From the NCBI RefSeq assembly GCF_900086705.1, contig NZ_LT575483.1, positions 2,741,189 to 2,805,188 of the forward strand: a stretch of 64,000 nt of DNA, read 5' to 3'. The notes below the pieces were generated by a model. It ran no database searches and was not told where the DNA came from. It was given only the letters and a program-made list of their open reading frames with translations. Shown here one piece after another: positions 5,182-44,154 of the stretch. The DNA comes from Massilibacillus massiliensis (lineage in GTDB: Bacteria > Bacillota > Negativicutes > FLKF01). The translations under genes and the position numbers were made by a program. Numbering within the stretch: position 1 is the stretch's first letter; every line of letters starts with the position of its first letter.

Positions 5182-6543
5182 GTGAGCACGCAAAGTAATA
5201 TAGGGGCAAGATTGGATCGTTTGCCGATATCAAAATGGCATTATAATGTTCTCATGTTGATGGGATTAGGTTTATTTATTGATAGTTTTGATAATTATAT
5301 GGGTGGTGTAATCCTAGCTGACTTGGTGAAATCAGGTTGGTCGAACAATTATCTGAATGCAGCTTTTGCTTCATCTACGATGGCCGGGCTTTTTATAGGG
5401 TCGCTATTCGCAGGTTTTGCAGGTGATCACTTGGGAAGGAAATTTGCCTATCAAATTAATTTGCTGATTTTTGGCTTTGCATCGATAGCAGCAGCCTTTG
5501 CCACAGATATGACGATGTTGATTATCTTTCGCGGTATTATGGGAATTGGTCTAGGGGCAGAACTTGTTATTGGGTTTGGTACATTTCCTGAATTCGTGCC
5601 GGCGAGGGTGCGAGGCAAGTGGGTGTCGTTTCTGTCACTGATTGCAAATGTTGCACCACCGATCGCGATTCTAACCGCATATTGGGTAATACCGATTTTT
5701 GGTTGGCGTGCAATGTTTGGAATTGGTGGGGTTGCGGCAATTATTGTATGGGCCTTGCGGCATGGCCTACCGGAATCCCCGCGCTGGTATGAGTCACATG
5801 GCGAAATAGCGAAAGCTGAAGAAATCCTTGCAAAAGTTGAAAAGGATATAGAGCTTGAAAAGGGAATTAAATTACCGCCGATTGAATCCGACGCTTTAGC
5901 TGTGGAGCAAGTGGTCAAAAAGGTTTCTTTCTTTCAATTATTTAAAGGTGTTTTATTAAGAAGAACCATTGTAGCTTCTGCGGTGTTGATTGCCATGAAT
6001 ACAATCGTCTATACTGTTTTGAATTGGGTTCCAACTATTTTTGTACAATCGGGCATCAGCGTGACTAAGTCTACCGGAATGATGGCATTGATCATGTTTG
6101 GGGCACCGCTGGGGGTATTTATTTCTTCACAAATTGTTGATAAATTTCCACGTAAAAAGATGGCGATCATACTTTTATTAATCATAGGATTACTAGGGTA
6201 TTTCTATTCATTACAACGTACAGAGGTGGCAATTGTCACGGTTGGATTTATTCTCACCGTAATTAACTATATTTTTACTTGCTTTGCTTGCTCGGTTTAC
6301 GTTCCCGAATTGTGGCCGACTGAAGCTCGTATGAGAGGCATGGGATTCGCGAATGCAGTTGGGCGGGTTTCCGCAGTATTTTCTCCATATGGCGTAGCTT
6401 GGCTTTTATCAAGTTATGGTTCTATCGCAGTCTTTATCGGTCTGGGTGTGGTATTGACGTTAATTGCAATTATTGTTGGTACTTTGGGAGTTGAAACCAG
6501 AAATAAATCACTGGAAGAGATCAGCAAAGAAGCAGGCGTCTAA
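5182..6543 (+). CDS. MFS transporter, organic-acid/aromatic-acid:H+ symporter type
   Basis: 453 residues from GTG 5182, which has a good AAGGGGGAA site 6 bases upstream; the longer in-frame start at 5101 lacks one. About 12 hydrophobic segments. The loop GDHLGRKFAYQ after helix 2 and the PESPRWYESHG segment after helix 6 are typical of the sugar-porter/AAHS/NiaP branch of MFS. Inner-membrane importer, last gene of the pxpBC-aminotransferase-aldolase-transketolase cluster and followed by a strong terminator; likely imports that pathway's substrate. Substrate is not deducible. Confidence 0.85.
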   Translation: MSTQSNIGARLDRLPISKWHYNVLMLMGLGLFIDSFDNYMGGVILADLVKSGWSNNYLNAAFASSTMAGLFIGSLFAGFAGDHLGRKFAYQINLLIFGFASIAAAFATDMTMLIIFRGIMGIGLGAELVIGFGTFPEFVPARVRGKWVSFLSLIANVAPPIAILTAYWVIPIFGWRAMFGIGGVAAIIVWALRHGLPESPRWYESHGEIAKAEEILAKVEKDIELEKGIKLPPIESDALAVEQVVKKVSFFQLFKGVLLRRTIVASAVLIAMNTIVYTVLNWVPTIFVQSGISVTKSTGMMALIMFGAPLGVFISSQIVDKFPRKKMAIILLLIIGLLGYFYSLQRTEVAIVTVGFILTVINYIFTCFACSVYVPELWPTEARMRGMGFANAVGRVSAVFSPYGVAWLLSSYGSIAVFIGLGVVLTLIAIIVGTLGVETRNKSLEEISKEAGV

Positions 6544-13752: not shown

Positions 13753-14658
13753 ATGAAAGGAATGTCGAATAGAGAACTAATCGGCAAGGTTGCTCTGATG
13801 GAAAATAAAGATTGGAATATTTTATTAACATTAAATAATGAAAAAAATATTACAAAAGCTGCGCAACTTTTGTATATGTCACAGCCAGCACTTACTTCTA
13901 AAATCAAGCATATAGAACAAGAATTAGGTGTTCAGCTCATATTAAGAAGAGCACGAGGAATTCAGTTTACACCTGAGGGAGAGTATGTGATTGGTAAAGC
14001 TGAAGAAATGGTTGAGCAACTGAAAAATATAAAAAATGAGTTGCGGAATTTTTCGAATTCACTGTCTGGTACAATTGAAATTTGTGCATCACATTATTTT
14101 ACGATGTATAGATTGCCAAGAATTTTAAAACTATTTAAACAAAAATATCCGGAGGCAGATTTTAAAGTAAAAACAAACTGGTCAAAAAATTTATTTAGTA
14201 TAGTGAATAGCAATAAGGCACATGTAGGTTTTGTAAATATAGATTATGGCGGTTGTGATAATGTTTACTTACTTTGCGAAGAGCCTATATGCATTGCATC
14301 AACCGAACCATTTCAAATGAAAGATCTTGCGACATTACCTCGGATTGAGTATCAACGTGATTATCTTTTAAAAATGCAAATTGATAAATGGTGGAGAGAG
14401 CATTTTGATCGCCCGCCGATGATTAATATGCATGTAGATAAAATTACAACTTGTCGGGAGATGGTATCCTACGGCTTGGGTTATGCAATTTTGCCGGAGT
14501 CTATTACCTTAAATATACCGAATATTCATAGAGCTTACTTAGTGAATCAGAGTGGTGAAAAAATTATGAGGCAAAACTGGATGGTTTATAATCATGGTGA
14601 TTTCGACATTCCAATCGTTAAAGTATTTATTCAATTCGTAAAAAATATGGTGTTCTAA
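13753..14658 (+). CDS. LysR-family transcriptional regulator of the citrate locus
   Basis: 301 residues from ATG 13753 or 286 from ATG 13798; the second start gives a canonical LysR N-terminus (MENKDWNILLTLNNEKNITKAAQ) but neither has a strong ribosome site. HTH residues AAQLLYMSQPALTSKIKHIEQELGV, followed by a ligand-binding domain. It is divergent from the aconitase-like gene and 259 bp upstream of citD, so it likely controls both, with a small acid such as citrate as effector (inference). Confidence 0.9.
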   Translation: MKGMSNRELIGKVALMENKDWNILLTLNNEKNITKAAQLLYMSQPALTSKIKHIEQELGVQLILRRARGIQFTPEGEYVIGKAEEMVEQLKNIKNELRNFSNSLSGTIEICASHYFTMYRLPRILKLFKQKYPEADFKVKTNWSKNLFSIVNSNKAHVGFVNIDYGGCDNVYLLCEEPICIASTEPFQMKDLATLPRIEYQRDYLLKMQIDKWWREHFDRPPMINMHVDKITTCREMVSYGLGYAILPESITLNIPNIHRAYLVNQSGEKIMRQNWMVYNHGDFDIPIVKVFIQFVKNMVF

Positions 14659-14917
14659 GAAAAAAGGAGTAATTGCAGCATAAGAACTTTAAGAGAATCA
14701 TGTATTATCTGAATTTTCTATCGCACCCAATCATAAATCTTTATTTTTTTTATTAGGATATCTTCGCTATAATTTAGATGTGGAATAAAGTTATATCAAT
14801 CTGCAAATCTAAATCAATAAAATTTATATTACGATAATACAAAACTATCGTGATGTAAATTGTAATTTAAATGTATGCAATGGATTAAGATTGCAATTAA
14901 AAAAAGAAGGTGAAGAG
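14659..14917 (+). promoter_or_regulatory. promoter region of the cit operon
   Basis: TATAAT at 14768-14773 with a T-rich, non-consensus -35. Downstream is an inverted repeat ACGATA (14831-14836) / TATCGT (14846-14851), spaced as a possible LysR-type or other operator. Transcript start not provable from sequence. Confidence 0.4.
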
Positions 14918-19282: not shown

Positions 19283-20179
19283 GTGCTTGTATTACCAGAA
19301 GAAATTGGTCGTCTCGCGGTGCAGGCGATTTTATATGAAGTAGCAGTTACGCCAAAGCCGGGATTGGTAGACCGATATAGTGCCGGTGCACATCAAGATA
19401 TGGATTACTTTTCTTTTTTAGCGAGTGCAACCGCCTTAATGCCGTATTTTACGCAATTTGCAAAAAAAGGAATCGAGGGGAAGGCAGATGCTCCCCAAGC
19501 TTTATTTCAAACGATTCGTGCTGTTGGTGTGGAGGCGGAGCATTGTATGTTTGACGCAACGGGCGGTGTTAATACGCACAAAGGCGCAATTTTTTCTATT
19601 GGGTTAGCGTGCGTGGCCTCGGGTGTTCTAGCTGCAAGAGGAGAACCGCTTACACCACAAAATATTGCTGGCTATGTGGCACAAATGACAGCAGGAATTT
19701 GTAGGCGTGAGTACGAAAAAATTAAAGCAAAAAAAAATCCCACCAAAGGTGAGAAAATTTATTTGCGTTATGGTCTAACGGGGGTTCGAGGTGAAGCAGA
19801 AGCGGGGTTCCCGAGTGTACTTAAGTATTCTTATCCGGTACTCGAACAATGTTTGTGCAGCGGAATTTCAGGAAATGAAAGTATGCTGCAAGCTTATCTT
19901 GTCTTAGCTAGTTCTGTAGATGATACCAATGTTTTAGGACGGCATAATCGCGAAATGTCGGCCTATTTAAAAACAAAAATGAGAGAAGTACTTGAAGCTG
20001 GCGGTGCCTTGAAAAAAGAGAATATTGCAGTATTGCAGGTGTTGGATGAGGAGTTTATTATAAAGAATATCAGTCCGGGAGGCTGTGCTGATTTGCTGGC
20101 ATTGACGATCTTTTTATTTTCCTTAGCGCATCCGTCTTGGCGATATCGCGTTATGGTGCGACATGCTGTGGACAGATAG
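19283..20179 (+). CDS. citG: triphosphoribosyl-dephospho-CoA synthase
   Basis: 298 residues from GTG 19283 behind AGGAGAA. TPKPGLVDRYSAGAHQDMD near residue 27, GGVNTHKGAIFS and SSVDDTNVLGRHN are diagnostic of CitG. Makes the precursor of the CitD prosthetic group from ATP and dephospho-CoA. The normal family C-terminus (LLALTIFLFSL) is followed here by 17 extra residues (AHPSWRYRVMVRHAVDR) whose codons are in more GC-rich DNA running into a palindromic repeat; the native stop may have been displaced by the repeat's arrival. Confidence 0.93.
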   Translation: MLVLPEEIGRLAVQAILYEVAVTPKPGLVDRYSAGAHQDMDYFSFLASATALMPYFTQFAKKGIEGKADAPQALFQTIRAVGVEAEHCMFDATGGVNTHKGAIFSIGLACVASGVLAARGEPLTPQNIAGYVAQMTAGICRREYEKIKAKKNPTKGEKIYLRYGLTGVRGEAEAGFPSVLKYSYPVLEQCLCSGISGNESMLQAYLVLASSVDDTNVLGRHNREMSAYLKTKMREVLEAGGALKKENIAVLQVLDEEFIIKNISPGGCADLLALTIFLFSLAHPSWRYRVMVRHAVDR

Positions 20180-20316
20180 GTCGCGGGTCGGCGATAAGCA
20201 TTCATCTGCGTCGTTACAGCAAGGTGCTGCTCGTCGACGTACACGAGTACGACTCCTTCACAACCCTTTGCTGCGCCTAGCATCTGAATACTTCTCGTCA
20301 ACCGGCAATCTATCTT
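20171..20316. repeat. large imperfect palindromic element after citG
   Basis: Two arms of about 70 nt (20171-20240 and 20246-20316) align as inverted repeats with scattered mismatches, e.g. GCAGATGAATGCTTATCG (reverse complement of the left arm) against GCATCTGAATACTTCTCG in the right arm; the tip is ACGAG. Base composition is clearly more GC-rich than the surroundings. It overlaps the last three codons of citG. Appears to be a member of a dispersed intergenic repeat or a non-autonomous mobile element; only a genome search can show copy number. Confidence 0.7.
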
Positions 20317-20455
20317 CGTACTAGTTTATAAGTGGAATGGGATTCGATGTAGCATATTCATCTATATGTATAGTTTTATTTTACCTATAATTTTTGCGTT
20401 GTCGCACTAAGATTTTACTTATAAATTTCTTAATGTAGCATGTATTATATAAATT

Positions 20456-22644: not shown

Positions 22645-24120
22645 CTAGAGCCCTATTTTGTATGAATGCTTTGCATTCATTTTTTTTATGATTTTTGCAA
22701 GTTTGTATAAGCCTGTTTTTAAATCGCAAATATCTGCGTAGGCATAAGATATTCTTAAGTGATGATTTGACAAATTGTCATAGATACTTCCTGGATTGAT
22801 CAGAAGATGTTCTGCCAATGCATTTTTGAATAATTGCTGCATTGCAATCGGTTCTATGAGTGTGATCCAGATGTAAAATCCACCTTTTGGTATAATCCAA
22901 GTAGCAATATCTTTAAAATGCTGATCTAAAACTTGGACAACAGTAAGACGTCGTAAGAGAAGCTCTTGGCGAAGCTTTTGTAAATGAGTTTCATGGCAGC
23001 CGGTTGCAAACCATTCCGCAGCCGTCCATTGCGATAAGCAGCTTGACCCATAATCATTTTGCATTTTGATATCGGCTAGCTTTTCTATAATGGGTTCAGG
23101 TCCCACGATCCAGCCGATTCGAAGTCCGGGGCTAACTGCTTTGGATAGACTGTCAATATAGAGTACATTGCCGGTTGTATCCAATGCTTTTAAAGGAGGC
23201 GGAGGCGGTTTCTCTAGCCATAGATCTCGATAGACATCATCTTCCAGGATCGGCAGCTGTGCTGTCTGGCAGGCAGAGAGTAGTTTTTGACGTCGGTTTT
23301 CTCCCATTAATATTCCCGTTGGATTATGGAATGTTGGTATCGTGTAGAGGAGGGAATGATATTTATATTTCTGCTGGTGTAAAAAAGCTTCTATTTGTAT
23401 ACCGTCATCATCCATCGGAAGTTCGGAGAAGTTTAGATTCATGGACTGAAATAATTTTAATGACATCAGATACGAAGGTTTTTCTACATAAATATTGGCT
23501 TTATTAGGCAATAAACCAAAGCAAATTAATTGCAATGCTTGCAAAGCGCCGGAGACAATCATGATGGAAGCAGGGGAGGCTGTAATCCCAAATTTTTTGA
23601 GATGCTGGCTGATTTGTTGGCGGAGGTAGTATAACCCTTTTGGTTCTTCATAACCGAATGATTGTATTTTATGGGGAAGCGTTTTTAAGATTTTATTTAG
23701 CTGCGCAGTAGGCAGTAGGTTTGGAGAAATTTCGCCTGTGCCAAGACGTGTAAGTGTTTCGTCAAATTCTAATCGATTGATTTCCTGGATAAATGGCAAA
23801 TTCGGCAAATAAAATCCCGTATGAACGTAAGCATTCCAATTTACCTTTTTTGTTGCGGTGAATAATGACCAAGTATTGTTGGCAACCCATATACCACTGC
23901 CTACTCTACTTTGCAGCAAACCCTCTGCAATCAGTTCGTCAAGGGCAATACGTATCGTACTGCGGTTAACTCTTAATTTGTCGGCAAGTTCACGCTGAGG
24001 CGGCAATTTGCTGTGAACAGTCCACTGTCCGGTATGAATTTTATTTTTGATATAGAAAAAGATCTGCTTGTATACAGGAATCGGATCTTTTTTATTTGGC
24101 TGCCAATCAATGGTTAACAT
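22645..24120 (-). CDS. MocR/PdxR-type GntR-aminotransferase regulator
   Basis: 491 residues. N-terminal GntR winged helix (about residues 15-75; KLPPQRELADKLRVNRSTIR) fused to a fold-type I aminotransferase domain with the PLP lysine in DSLSKAVSPGLRIGW. Such proteins use PLP-amino acid adducts as signal. Divergent from a LysE-type exporter, its likely target, with an operator-like dyad between them (24154-24188). Its last codons are shared with the converging terminator at 22662-22687. Confidence 0.92.
   Translation of the reverse strand: MLTIDWQPNKKDPIPVYKQIFFYIKNKIHTGQWTVHSKLPPQRELADKLRVNRSTIRIALDELIAEGLLQSRVGSGIWVANNTWSLFTATKKVNWNAYVHTGFYLPNLPFIQEINRLEFDETLTRLGTGEISPNLLPTAQLNKILKTLPHKIQSFGYEEPKGLYYLRQQISQHLKKFGITASPASIMIVSGALQALQLICFGLLPNKANIYVEKPSYLMSLKLFQSMNLNFSELPMDDDGIQIEAFLHQQKYKYHSLLYTIPTFHNPTGILMGENRRQKLLSACQTAQLPILEDDVYRDLWLEKPPPPPLKALDTTGNVLYIDSLSKAVSPGLRIGWIVGPEPIIEKLADIKMQNDYGSSCLSQWTAAEWFATGCHETHLQKLRQELLLRRLTVVQVLDQHFKDIATWIIPKGGFYIWITLIEPIAMQQLFKNALAEHLLINPGSIYDNLSNHHLRISYAYADICDLKTGLYKLAKIIKKMNAKHSYKIGL
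22662..22687 (+). terminator. Rho-independent terminator
   Basis: ATGAATGC TTT GCATTCAT followed by seven T. Terminates the small gene at 22319; it lies inside the 3' coding end of the converging MocR gene. Confidence 0.75.
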
Positions 24121-24153
24121 GTTGCCACCTCCAAGTATTTCTTTATTATATCA

Positions 24154-24188
24154 AATTGGTTGGTATAAAAACAAACCAATTGGCTGGC
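24154..24188. promoter_or_regulatory. MocR operator candidate
   Basis: AATTGGTTGGT (24154-24164), inverted copy ACAAACCAATT (24171-24181) and a direct copy AATTGGCTGGC (24178-24188), all centred between the MocR and LysE starts. One direct plus one inverted half-site is the arrangement typically bound by MocR dimers. Confidence 0.6.
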
Positions 24189-24248
24189 GACAAGGTAAGC
24201 ATATATTTTTATAATTTGTTGTATAAGAAAATGACAGGTGGTATTTTT

Positions 24249-24866
24249 ATGACAGCATTTATACATGGTATATGTTTGGCAATTGGTTTAATTTTACCTT
24301 TAGGTGTGCAAAATTTATTCATTTTTCAGCAAGGTGTGGTGCAGCCGCGATTTCGCTATGTATTGCCAGCGGTGCTTACAGCAGCCCTTTGTGATACCTT
24401 ATTAATTTTATGTGCAGTTCATGGTGTATCTATGTTCTTATTTAAGTTTTCCATGTTGAAATTGATTACGATTGGTGCAGGTGTTATCGTTTTATTTTAT
24501 ATGGGATACTTGACCTGGCAAAGTAATGCAACGCGCAGTTCATTTCAGTGTATGCAGGCTTTTTCAACAAAGAAACAAATTGCATTCGCTATATCAGTAT
24601 CGTTTCTGAATCCAAATGCCATTTTTGATATTCTTGGTGTTATTGGGGCCAGTTCAGCGCAATATGAAGGTTCGGAGAAAATGATTTTTGCAACAGCGTG
24701 CGTGCTGGTATCCTGGATTTGGTTTTTCAGTTTAGCGATCATCGGCAGATTGTTAGGTGAATATAAAAATATAGATCGGCTGATGGTTTTACTCAATAAA
24801 ATATCAGCAGTTCTTATTTGGGGTATGGCACTTGTTCTTTTATATAGTCTAAAAGACTCGTTCTAA
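24249..24866 (+). CDS. LysE/ArgO-family amino acid exporter
   Basis: 205 residues from ATG 24249 (site CAGGTGG 7 bases upstream). Six hydrophobic segments; GLILPLGVQNLFIFQQGV at the N-terminus and SFLNPNAIFDILGVIG in the middle are conserved in LysE/ArgO. Exports basic or other amino acids across the inner membrane. Divergent from the MocR regulator, probably induced by it in response to an amino acid. Confidence 0.9.
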   Translation: MTAFIHGICLAIGLILPLGVQNLFIFQQGVVQPRFRYVLPAVLTAALCDTLLILCAVHGVSMFLFKFSMLKLITIGAGVIVLFYMGYLTWQSNATRSSFQCMQAFSTKKQIAFAISVSFLNPNAIFDILGVIGASSAQYEGSEKMIFATACVLVSWIWFFSLAIIGRLLGEYKNIDRLMVLLNKISAVLIWGMALVLLYSLKDSF

Positions 24867-40305: not shown

Positions 40306-41640
40306 ATGATCAAAGATATAGAAATTTCAAGAATTCATCCTCACTATGACAATCCTCGCAAAGACCTTGGAGACCTTACCGAACTTGCAGAGAGTATAAA
40401 AATTAACGGAATTCTTCAGAACCTCACAGTTGTACCTTGGTTTTCAAAAATCACTGGTGTTGGTGCTGATGATCCTAAACAACAAGAAGAACTTGGATAT
40501 ATTGCTGTTATCGGTCACCGTCGTCTTGCAGCAGCGGAACTTGCCGGATTAACAAAAGTGCCATGCAATATATCAGATATGAGTTATCGTAAACAAATTT
40601 CTACTATGCTGCTTGAAAATATGCAACGAAGCGACTTAACAATATATGAACAAGCACAAGGATTTCAGATGATGCTTGACCTCGGAGAATCCGTTAATGA
40701 CATATCTAAAAACACTGGTTTTTCGGAATCTACCGTTCGTCGCAGAGTGAAACTCCTAGAGTTTGATAAAGAAAAATTCAAGGAATCAGTTGAGCGTGGC
40801 GGTACCTTAATGGACTATGCAGAGCTGGATAAGATTCAAGACATCAAAACTCGTAATAAGGTTCTTGAGAAAATCGGAACACCAAATTTTAAATGGGAGC
40901 TGAAAGATGCCATAGATAAAGAGACAAGTAAGAAAAATAAGGCATTGATAATTGCTGAACTCGAAAAATTCGCAACGAAAGTGGAAAAAATTAATGGCTT
41001 AAGCTATGTACAATCATTTTACTTATTTCAACAACCTGAAATTGTTATACCAAACGATATTGATACTGTCGAATATTTTTACTGCATTAATGGATCAAGC
41101 TATATATATTTATACAAAAAAAGTGAAGACGAAAAACCGCAAGCTGATCAAGCTTTGCTTGACGAACGAAGAAAACATGACGAACACCGCGCAGCCCTAA
41201 TTAAAGTTTCAAAACAAGCATATCAACTTCGAAGCGATTTTATTAAAACTGTTTCTAACACCACAGCAAAGAAAAATCTACATGTCATAATTGAGTATTT
41301 ATTATTGGCTACATTAAATGATAATTACTATGTTGCTGAATTTGAAGACCTTGCTAATTTTCTTGGTCTTGAAATAAATGAAGATGATGAACAAAATCTT
41401 ATTAATAACATCAAATCTCTTATTATTGCCCAACCTGAACGACACCTGTTAATATCGACTTATTTAACACTTGATTCAGAACAAGCAAATTATTATAACT
41501 GGAGCAATCAGTATGTTGAAAATGAAATACTCAACACAGTATACGATTTCCTTGCGAAGCTTGGTTATGAAATATCTGAAGAAGAAAGTTCACTGCGCAA
41601 CGGTACGCATGGACTATTCGTAAATATAGAGGACAAATAA
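40306..41640 (+). CDS. ParB/Spo0J-family protein
   Basis: 444 residues. The N-terminal ParB domain has IHPHYDNPRKDLGDLTELAESI and GHRRLAAAELAG, followed by a HTH (DISKNTGFSESTVRRRVKLLE) around residue 140. Phages often carry ParB-like CTPase/nuclease-like proteins in the early region with no ParA. The C-terminal half is long and specific. Stop is followed at once by the next ATG. Confidence 0.85.
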   Translation: MIKDIEISRIHPHYDNPRKDLGDLTELAESIKINGILQNLTVVPWFSKITGVGADDPKQQEELGYIAVIGHRRLAAAELAGLTKVPCNISDMSYRKQISTMLLENMQRSDLTIYEQAQGFQMMLDLGESVNDISKNTGFSESTVRRRVKLLEFDKEKFKESVERGGTLMDYAELDKIQDIKTRNKVLEKIGTPNFKWELKDAIDKETSKKNKALIIAELEKFATKVEKINGLSYVQSFYLFQQPEIVIPNDIDTVEYFYCINGSSYIYLYKKSEDEKPQADQALLDERRKHDEHRAALIKVSKQAYQLRSDFIKTVSNTTAKKNLHVIIEYLLLATLNDNYYVAEFEDLANFLGLEINEDDEQNLINNIKSLIIAQPERHLLISTYLTLDSEQANYYNWSNQYVENEILNTVYDFLAKLGYEISEEESSLRNGTHGLFVNIEDK

Positions 41641-43884
41641 ATGGACAACCATAAACATGATTTACTCCCATTACTCGAATATATTGATCCTTCAAACCTT
41701 TCATATCAAGAATGGGTGAATGTTGGCATGGCACTCAAAGAAGAAGGTTTTACGGCAGCTGATTGGGATAATTGGAGTAAAAGAGATTTTTCTCGTTATC
41801 GTGCCGGTGAATGTTTCAAAAAATGGACAACTTTCCAAGGTACGACAAAGCCCGTGACAGCTGGAACTATAGTGGATATGGCGAAAACCGGAGGTTGGAA
41901 ACCAACTGGCGGCGGTACAGAGCTTGCCTGGGATGATATTATCGGTGGCAGTAAAGATGATATGGTCCTGGTTGATAAAAACTGGATTGAAGGCAGGGAA
42001 GTAACAGAACCACAAAAATGGGATCCAATTAAAGATCTGGTTACCTATCTTGAAACTCTGTTTGATAGTACTGAAAATGTTGGCTATGTAACAACCTCTT
42101 GGGAGAAAGAAGGTAAGTATTTACCGACAAAGGGAAACTGGGCGCGTACAGCCGGTGAACTCATTGAAGAATTAAATATTTGTGATGGTGATATCGGTGC
42201 TGTTCTTGGAGATTATAAGCCAGAATGTGGCGCATGGATCCGGTTCAATCCACTTGATGGACAGGGCTGTAAAAATGATAATGTAACAGATTTTCGTTAT
42301 GCACTCGTAGAATCTGACTGTATGGAAATTGATAAGCAAAATGAGATCATCCGCACATTAGAACTACCGGTAGCATGCCTCGTACATAGTGGCGGTAAAA
42401 GCCTGCATGCAATAGTTCGCGTCGATGCTGCAGATAAAAATGAATACCGTAAAAGAGTCGATTACCTATATGCAGTCTGTCAAAAGAATGGTCTTGAAAT
42501 CGACAGTCAAAACCGTAATCCCTCGAGACTATCCAGGATGCCAGGCGTCATTCGCAAAGGGCATAAACAGTGGTTGGTAGATAGCAATATAGGGAAAGCA
42601 AACTTCGTTGAGTGGCAGGAATGGATAGAAGCTATCAATGATGATTTACCAGAGCCTGAAAGCATGGCCGATGCCTGGGACAACCTTCCTGAGCTTGCAC
42701 CATCACTAATTCATGGAATCCTTCGTCAAGGACACAAATTATTGATTGCTGGTCCATCTAAAGCAGGTAAATCCTTTGCATTGATAGAGCTATGTTGCGC
42801 GATTGCCGAAGGTATGAAATGGCTGTCTTGGAATTGCGCCCAGGGCAAAGTATTATATGTGAATCTTGAGCTTGATAGAGCAAGCTGTCTGCATCGTTTC
42901 AAAGATGTATATCAGTCGCTTAAATGGGAACCGAAAAATGTTGGTAATATTGATATTTGGAATTTGCGCGGTAAATCTATACCAATGGACAAGCTGGCAC
43001 CAAAACTCATACGTAGAGCTGCAAAGAAAAATTATATGGCCATTATCATTGATCCAATTTACAAAGTCATTACTGGTGATGAAAACAGCGCTGATCAGAT
43101 GGCAAACTTCTGCAATCAATTCGATAAAGTGTGTACAGAACTTGGCTGCGCGGTAATTTATTGTCATCATCATTCAAAAGGAGCCCAAGGTGGTAAAAGG
43201 TCAATGGACAGGGCTAGCGGCAGCGGTGTATTCGCTCGTGATCCAGATGCCCTGCTTGATTTAATTGAACTCGATATTACCGATGCATTACTTAAACAGG
43301 AAGAAAATAAAGCTGTTTGTGCGGCTTGTATGGATTACCTTGAGCAGAAATATCCAACATGGGAAGACGATGTTTCACAAGATGATCAGTGCAGTGAAAA
43401 AGCGATGCTTGATTATTGTAAAAAAGTTTTACCAATAGAATCTTATACAACACTCACAAATAATTTCGTATACAGAGCAAGGCAGAAAGTACAACAGCGC
43501 ACCGCATGGCGCATTGAAGGAACATTAAGAGAGTTCCCTAAGTTCTCACCAGTCAATCTGTGGTTTGATTATCCGGTGCACCATGTAGATAGGATTGGTG
43601 TTTTAAAAGATGTGGAAGCCGATAGTGAGCAGCCTTCATGGAAAAAGAATTTTAAGAAGAAAAAAACACCGGAAGATAGTAAAAAAGATCGTAAAATTGC
43701 GATAGAAAATGCAATCGAAGCAACTAAATTTGGTGGTACTCCAACGCTTAAAAGTATGGCGGAATATATGGGCGTAACGGAAAAGACTGTAAAAAATCAT
43801 CTGAAAGAGCATGGGGGATATACCGTAGCACATAATGGTGAAGTCTTTAAATTAACTAAAAATGGGAATATGGAAACCGCATAG
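41641..43884 (+). CDS. phage primase-helicase (PriCT-2, primase-like, RepA-type AAA)
   Basis: 747 residues, the largest early protein. Residues about 12-90 match the PriCT-2 primase C-terminal domain; about 130-300 contain SGGKSLHAIVRVDA and VESDCMEID as in primase-type domains; about 355-560 form a RepA-like ATPase with Walker A AGPSKAGKSFA near residue 370 and Walker B IIIDPIYK; the C-terminus has a HTH (MAEYMGVTEKTVKNHL). It would load at the phage origin. The gene is immediately followed by the tandem hairpin array. Confidence 0.87.
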   Translation: MDNHKHDLLPLLEYIDPSNLSYQEWVNVGMALKEEGFTAADWDNWSKRDFSRYRAGECFKKWTTFQGTTKPVTAGTIVDMAKTGGWKPTGGGTELAWDDIIGGSKDDMVLVDKNWIEGREVTEPQKWDPIKDLVTYLETLFDSTENVGYVTTSWEKEGKYLPTKGNWARTAGELIEELNICDGDIGAVLGDYKPECGAWIRFNPLDGQGCKNDNVTDFRYALVESDCMEIDKQNEIIRTLELPVACLVHSGGKSLHAIVRVDAADKNEYRKRVDYLYAVCQKNGLEIDSQNRNPSRLSRMPGVIRKGHKQWLVDSNIGKANFVEWQEWIEAINDDLPEPESMADAWDNLPELAPSLIHGILRQGHKLLIAGPSKAGKSFALIELCCAIAEGMKWLSWNCAQGKVLYVNLELDRASCLHRFKDVYQSLKWEPKNVGNIDIWNLRGKSIPMDKLAPKLIRRAAKKNYMAIIIDPIYKVITGDENSADQMANFCNQFDKVCTELGCAVIYCHHHSKGAQGGKRSMDRASGSGVFARDPDALLDLIELDITDALLKQEENKAVCAACMDYLEQKYPTWEDDVSQDDQCSEKAMLDYCKKVLPIESYTTLTNNFVYRARQKVQQRTAWRIEGTLREFPKFSPVNLWFDYPVHHVDRIGVLKDVEADSEQPSWKKNFKKKKTPEDSKKDRKIAIENAIEATKFGGTPTLKSMAEYMGVTEKTVKNHLKEHGGYTVAHNGEVFKLTKNGNMETA

Positions 43885-44154
43885 AAACGGAAAAACTCGA
43901 TGATTTTCCGTTTCTTCCAAAATGGAAAAAGTCGAACAGTGCTTCGAGATTTTCCATTTTGGAAGGAAGAAAAACGTCGAGTTTTTCCACTTTCCAAATC
44001 GGAAGAAAAAGTCGGTGAATTTTCGAGTTTTTCCGAATCGGAAGAAAACCCATATATATAAATATATGTTTGGTGATTTTCCGCCCTACGGTCAAGGGGA
44101 AAAAATAGTCGTGCGTTAGCTTTCGCACGACGACTACTTTTCCCTTTCCTTGAC
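43884..44154. repeat. array of five or six tandem stem-loops after the primase-helicase
   Basis: Successive hairpins: GAAACGGAAAA/TTTTCCGTTTC (43884-43894, 43904-43914); a perfect 15-bp stem TTCCAAAATGGAAAA / TTTTCCATTTTGGAA (43915-43929, 43950-43964) whose loop has an inner TCGAA/TTCGA stem; a 12-of-15 stem at 43961-43975 / 43981-43995; TTCCAAATCGG...GTCG / CGAG...CGAATCGGAA (43992-44013, 44024-44043); an AT-rich unit with ATATATAAATATA (44053-44065); and a long stem GTCAAGG...GTCGTGCG / CGCACGA...CTTGAC (44091-44115, 44124-44154). Units share GGAARAAAAnGTCGA. Candidate origin with an AT-rich unwinding element, or a structured RNA/attenuator. Confidence 0.85.

Follow-up and report, generated by a model that had tools for sequence, protein, structure and literature searches.

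The non-coding repeat array at 43884-44154 is likely a prophage replication origin, predicted to be bound by the PrimPol-helicase encoded by the gene just upstream. Its repeated word behaves as an iteron, and we consider it very likely that the iterons are binding sites for the C-terminal winged helix of that protein. The sequence-only reading had proposed either an origin or a tandem regulatory RNA. The origin reading is strongly supported by two features compared across related loci, the constant position of the array and a repeat word that co-varies with the predicted recognition helix of the protein. Such co-variation is expected of iterons read by an initiator and unexpected of a tandem regulatory RNA. 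Given that the word follows the protein, a regulatory RNA is not needed to account for the array, although the terminal hairpin may still be a structured RNA.

The non-coding stretch begins at the stop codon of the 747-aa gene, contains short open reading frames only and is separated from the next one by about 30 nt, in line with the original description of scant coding potential right after a replication gene. The core described earlier, GGAARAAAAnGTCGA, is present in nine good copies, five on the + strand (starting at 43889, 43924, 43965, 44001 and 44098) and four on the - strand (43897-43909, 43944-43955, 43977-43988 and 44023-44034), plus two partial copies. The iteron array itself spans 43885-44035 with copies on both strands, where inverted pairs form hairpins; the stem-loops exist because adjacent + and - iterons pair. 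Perfect stems of 11 and 15 bp had been reported, and both were recovered. The stem 43884-43894/43904-43914 comprises 11 bp (12 bp if 43883/43915 is counted), and the second has arms of 26 nt each (43911-43936/43943-43968) that are 88% complementary and include about 16 bp of perfect pairing without a break. The earlier view of the hairpin as the repeated unit did not hold: the unit is the iteron, and only 44091-44154 is conserved as a hairpin in its own right.

An AT-only patch, ATATATATAAATATAT, initially placed at about 44053-44065, extends exactly from 44052 to 44067 (16 nt) and is a putative unwinding element. It is flanked by the two partial iterons, GGAAGAAAACC on the left (44040-44050, + strand) and an inverted copy on the right (44072-44082, - strand). 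The stretch ends in a compound hairpin, GTCAAGG...CCTTGAC with the inner stem GTCGTGCG/CGCACGAC (44091-44154), which is recognized by a covariance model (R1), contains the further iteron-like copy at 44098 and represents a putative ssi-like priming site.

Self-folding of either strand was far stronger than that of shuffled sequences. The + strand RNA folds at -122.4 kcal/mol, compared with -74.9 +/- 5.0 in shuffles (z -9.5), and the - strand gives a z of -8.8. Folding energies as low as the array's were also obtained at 5491-5850 and 20071-20430 of the window (the whole 64-kb stretch of DNA analysed), without comparable repeats. The array has the highest repeat score of 709 segments of 270 nt each across the 64 kb, and 0 of 100 shuffles showed an equally high iteron excess; the length of the AT-only run is marginal by the same comparison (p 0.08). 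A degenerate iteron pattern allowing up to three mismatches occurs 17 times across the window versus 19 expected, with no excess outside the array. No second array was found in the same genome, the sole other match being an inverted copy within the array itself, and a DNA-level search of phage records with the array gave one weak match only. GC skew does not change sign at the array; within this window, skew is governed mainly by gene orientation.

The upstream gene (41641-43884, + strand) encodes a predicted initiator of 747 aa that combines PriCT-2, an AEP primase, a RepA-type helicase and a C-terminal winged helix. Pfam assigns PriCT_2 to residues 11-81 and AAA_25 to residues 347-515, the DNA primase family phrog_2597 matches the protein over its full length, and residues 368-530 match the RSF1010 RepA helicase (1g8y, E 1.4e-8). 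The AEP domain was placed at residues 126-330 (codons 42016-42630, + strand) using an AlphaFold model and VIA-align. As modelled, it resembles RSF1010 RepB' with initiator DNA (3h25_A; Z 13.9, 174 residues aligned, rmsd 3.5) and the PrimPol of cyanophage S-2L (6zp9_A; Z 13.8, 178 aligned, rmsd 3.5). The winged helix (residues 677-738, codons 43669-43854, + strand) is modelled as H-H-H-wing with a mean pLDDT of 87-92 across most of the domain. Foldseek returned DtxR/IdeR-type matches for it with a probability of about 0.97 but E values >0.03, which makes them individually weak. The predicted recognition helix spans residues 714-724 (codons 43780-43812, + strand), and K715, K718 and N719 are the best trackers of the iteron word.

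The InversePrim family of the PrimPol-PV1 supergroup is known from prophages, mostly of Firmicutes, and is recognized by a PriCT domain before the AEP domain, fusion to a RepA-family helicase and a histidine in motif II (PMC5862659, available in part). In the protein analysed here, PriCT_2 precedes the AEP domain, the helicase is of RepA type, and the motif II histidine is H256 in SGGKSLH, which is invariant in 45 aligned relatives. By domain order and motif, we classify the protein as an InversePrim-family AEP primase, with primase activity predicted. The available part of PMC5862659 names no DNA-binding domain or origin for this family, and we found no earlier location of origins for this widespread prophage primase in the literature. 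Within the replication module, a ParB-like gene (40306-41640; ParB_N, HTH; phrog_6218) lies between a DEAD-box helicase gene and the PrimPol-helicase gene. The slot is filled by different genes in named Streptococcus phages, in phiKSM96 for instance by one for a cytosine methyltransferase.

Relatives were collected with one query protein, the upstream PrimPol-helicase, which matched 80 viral contigs, 79 GTDB genome loci (almost exclusively from Firmicutes) and 441 phage records; loci that are related do not count as independent observations. One match lies in an unannotated part of a Paenibacillus megaplasmid and does not independently prove a plasmid replicon. In nearly every readable relative a non-coding repeat array is kept 3' of the same gene and the repeat word differs. 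Removal of near-duplicates (90% identity) left a comparison set of 103 loci, in which the top G/C-containing 6-mer has a mean of 7.96 copies, compared with 3.0 in shuffles. The iteron excess is individually significant in 83 of these loci, and 20 do not reach p <= 0.02. An AT patch is visible by eye in most relatives, its run length giving p <= 0.05 in 34 of the 103. The fold z of the array is below -3 in 34 of 35 sampled relatives and in none of the coding control stretches.

The repeat word tracks the winged helix specifically. Array similarity correlates with protein identity at 0.07-0.16 for segments of residues 1-640 and at 0.56-0.58 for residues 690-725. In a partial Mantel analysis, the winged helix and the array word gave 0.54-0.57, compared with a permutation null maximum of 0.15. 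Among 607 variable residues scanned column by column, the top three were 715, 719 and 718, all in the predicted recognition helix; this ranking holds for two of the three region lengths used, and in the third, 673 ranks third and 718 fourth. Since the winged helix and the array adjoin on the DNA, tests for linkage were needed. Residues 725-747 are nearer to the array than residues 690-725, but their correlation with it is lower (0.47-0.49), and this speaks against linkage alone. With the terminal hairpin as a linkage control, the winged helix correlates with the iterons at 0.578 given the hairpin, and with the hairpin at 0.197 given the iterons.

From the 103 loci we read a code in residues 715, 718 and 719: K-R followed by N, S or T corresponds to AGGGAAA, K-R-R to AGGGACA, N-K-x to TGTCAAA, R-R-D to GGGGAA and K-W-N to ATTCCC. 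At least three copies of AGGGAAA were found in 22 of 26 loci with K-R-N, K-R-S or K-R-T, none of which carries AGGGACA; conversely, seven of eight K-R-R loci contain AGGGACA and none contains AGGGAAA. The code was applied to left-out Streptococcus phages, some of whose arrays had been inspected before the full code table was drawn up, the K-R-N and K-R-R groups having been listed earlier still. All nine left-out K-R-R phages contain AGGGACA, in 2-16 copies each, with AGGGAAA at most once, and the sole left-out K-R-N phage has AGGGAAA and lacks AGGGACA. The helix residues of L162, L167, L170 and L178 were taken by eye from the sequence (SEKTVRRW in the last three). An exception is the K-R-S phage L179, which carries mainly ACGGAAA, and outside the common classes the code gives no prediction (R-R-N in L162; K-E-N in L165, L173 and L174). 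Predicting the word by nearest neighbour over the entire C-terminal domain did not succeed for several Streptococcus phages, whereas the three-residue code did.

Phages with exchanged winged helices provide further support for the link between helix and word. In phage pairs that are 92-98% identical over residues 1-640 and have different winged helices, the words differ and each matches its own helix. For example, L010 and L012 are 98% identical over this region and 50% identical in the winged helix, and their different words each fit the respective helix. In 117 pairs whose bodies are similar but whose winged helices are not, mean array similarity was 0.19, compared with 0.87 where the winged helix is kept. 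Because the winged helix and the array adjoin, part of the correlation between word and helix reflects their common descent as a single short segment. Permutation values remove phylogeny incompletely, and most weight is therefore given to the exchanged pairs and to the left-out phages.

Matching of word and helix indicates DNA binding, not its purpose. The repeats could instead be operators, through which the PrimPol-helicase or a regulator with the same winged helix controls downstream early genes, with the origin elsewhere in the prophage; genes for a 75-aa protein and RusA do lie directly downstream of the array. However, the candidate reader is a primase-helicase, whose domains point to replication rather than to control of transcription. 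The array combines at least nine sites with an AT patch and a conserved hairpin, and promoter-like sites are not in significant excess (3 versus 2.0 expected). In PICIs, moreover, it is the region 3' of the initiator gene that serves as the origin (PMC6092414, available in part). We therefore consider operators quite unlikely and retain the origin as the preferred reading of the iterons.

The terminal hairpin is a conserved part of the array separate from the iterons, with covariation of its own. It is the most sequence-conserved part, has a constant orientation and occurs once per locus. Model R1 was built from 29 loci, which match by construction; it scores 76.7 bits at 44091-44154 and matches the + strand in 62 of 100 loci, 72-417 nt past the stop codon. 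In left-out phages R1 recognizes the hairpin in only some cases, though inspection by eye shows a large hairpin in them. Several pairs change on both sides, such as one of the outer positions (C-G, A-T and T-A) and some inner positions (T-A and G-C), with counts that are rough as the outer pairs are partly misaligned. Covariance among the stems had been suggested as a check; in the iteron part, stem sequences change with the DNA-reading residues of the protein.

These paired changes, together with the strong folding of both strands here and in the sampled relatives, would suit a tandem structured RNA transcribed in the early operon as a regulator, decoy or processing signal. Such a role does not, however, predict that the iteron-part stems change with DNA-reading residues. 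When folded freely, the hairpin prefers the - strand (52 of 63 loci), which runs against the operon transcript, and pair counts in the fitted alignment (76 G-U and 83 A-C cells) do not decide the strand. A search of Rfam 15 found no family at the gathering score; sub-threshold matches were mostly eukaryotic microRNA look-alikes, which long hairpins can yield. On this evidence a structured RNA is a very unlikely explanation of the array. Even less probable is a cluster of intrinsic terminators or attenuators at the end of the primase gene. Two terminator-like sites occur at 44108-44131 (0.4 expected) in a promoter and terminator scan that gave nothing convincing; against this, no T-run follows the hairpin in relatives, and the flanking genes are on the same strand, apparently in one operon.

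The conservation, fixed orientation and single occurrence of the hairpin also raise the alternative, along the lines proposed for pRN1, that the hairpin by itself forms the origin or the priming site and that the iterons serve copy control or incompatibility. Indeed, pRN1 needs the stem-loop behind its prim-pol gene, and the available part of PMC4234260 reports no iterons there. In the prophage family, however, the iterons are equally constant in place and are significant in 83 of 103 loci, compared with 62 matches to the hairpin model. In several TGTCAAA phages, iterons flanking the AT palindrome make up the best large hairpin, and a separate one was not found. We regard this division of roles as unlikely and favour an origin composed of iterons, AT patch and hairpin, giving about even weight to the proposal, made by analogy, that the terminal hairpin is the priming site.

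A plausible sequence of events at such an origin is as follows. The C-terminal winged helix would bind the iterons in both orientations, and many bound copies may load the RepA-type helicase domain and melt the AT-only patch between the inverted partial iterons. Unwinding would leave the terminal hairpin single-stranded, where the AEP domain could prime and a host polymerase extend. We infer melting, helicase loading and hairpin priming from RSF1010, P4, PICIs and pRN1 (PMC4434180; PMC4234260 and PMC6092414, both available in part). The overall scheme would be a one-protein version of RSF1010 initiation.

The oriV of RSF1010 (IncQ) consists of iterons, an AT-rich melting region and hairpin priming sites, one on each strand; the prophage array has iterons, a putative melting region and a putative priming site. 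Both systems also pair a RepA-type hexameric helicase with an AEP primase of the RepB' fold. RepB' recognizes the ssiA/ssiB hairpins (PMC4434180), and the order of initiation events in RSF1010 has been described (PMC4234260, in the part available). In RSF1010, RepC, RepA and RepB' are separate, whereas the prophage has primase, helicase and DNA-binding domain in one protein. The prophage iterons are short, lie in both orientations and vary between phages, and the two short ssi hairpins have as their counterpart one compound hairpin of about 64 nt.

The initiators of PICIs and P4 have a helicase of a class other than the RepA type of the prophage, the P4 primase is of Toprim type, and InversePrim elements, unlike these satellites, are whole temperate phages. 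In PICIs, including SaPIs, as in the prophage, the origin lies directly 3' of the initiator gene and two iteron sets flank an AT-rich region (PMC6092414, available in part). P4 alpha likewise joins helicase, primase and C-terminal winged helix (PMC4234260, available in part). No large conserved hairpin is described for either in the available text of these two sources. The PICI layout has been stated to be common to no other known replicon (PMC6092414, in the same part); judged from sequence, the InversePrim prophage family has a similar one.

Large stem-loops conserved in structure and not in sequence lie directly behind PrimPol-helicases with a C-terminal winged helix in pRN1 (behind orf904) and in Bordetella phage BIP-1 (PMC4234260, available in part). 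For pRN1, the same text reports no iterons and no specific binding at the stem-loop, and its helicase belongs to SF3 rather than to the RepA type. The helical PriCT-like domain of pRN1 follows the primase, whereas PriCT precedes it in the prophage. Streptococcus thermophilus phage Sfi21 has a primase of another family. Its 302-bp PER is comparable in being short and non-coding, in belonging to the replication module and in having origin features; PER blocks replication of incoming phages in a copy-number-dependent manner, and the available part of the report describes no link between a repeat word and a protein (PMC6356513). In the PLE satellites of Vibrio cholerae, the RepA_N DNA-binding domain of the initiator varies together with the origin, and the two are exchanged as one piece (PMC8263062). 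PLEs differ in having another initiator family, two origin groups only and no residue-level code.

Iteron origins behind initiator genes are thus already known on their own, as are PrimPol stem-loops and the swapping of an initiator domain together with its origin. As far as the openly readable literature shows, an InversePrim prophage origin, the combined layout, the residue-level code and reader-repeat exchange across many phages appear to be new. We lean, with some reservation, toward the view that InversePrim prophages of Firmicutes carry an exchangeable specificity cassette, made up of the last 60-70 residues and the iteron array, that is read through the 715/718/719 code and used in RSF1010-like initiation by one protein. 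If so, cassettes would sort phages into replication-compatibility groups, which suggests that competing prophages, satellites or origin-targeting defences select for diversification. The analysis would place the origins of a widespread prophage primase family, name a candidate reading domain and its residues, and indicate that origins laid out like those of PICIs also occur outside satellites. Reader-repeat exchange could allow sequence-based typing of which prophages might compete for or titrate each other's replication, and the table of residues and words may serve as a natural dataset on changes of winged-helix DNA specificity.

Several smaller features of the arrays were also observed. In the TGTCAAA/GGTCAAA phages L051, L125, L131, L141, L150 and L152, the AT palindrome or a long palindrome lies within a near-perfect large inverted repeat of iterons in the first 200 nt after the gene, and AT patch and hairpin appear fused as one cruciform-capable element. 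After the iteron words, both at 43889-44015 and in relatives, there is often an A-run with another element behind it (TCGA, ACAT, ACGG, CCGA or ACCAT) that seemingly varies independently of the first word. Finally, short hypothetical open reading frames are annotated in or across the array in L163, L169 and L174 (Vegas 40416-40538, Castelnaud 24045-24302 and Javan253 14554-14673) and probably represent over-annotation of a non-coding origin.
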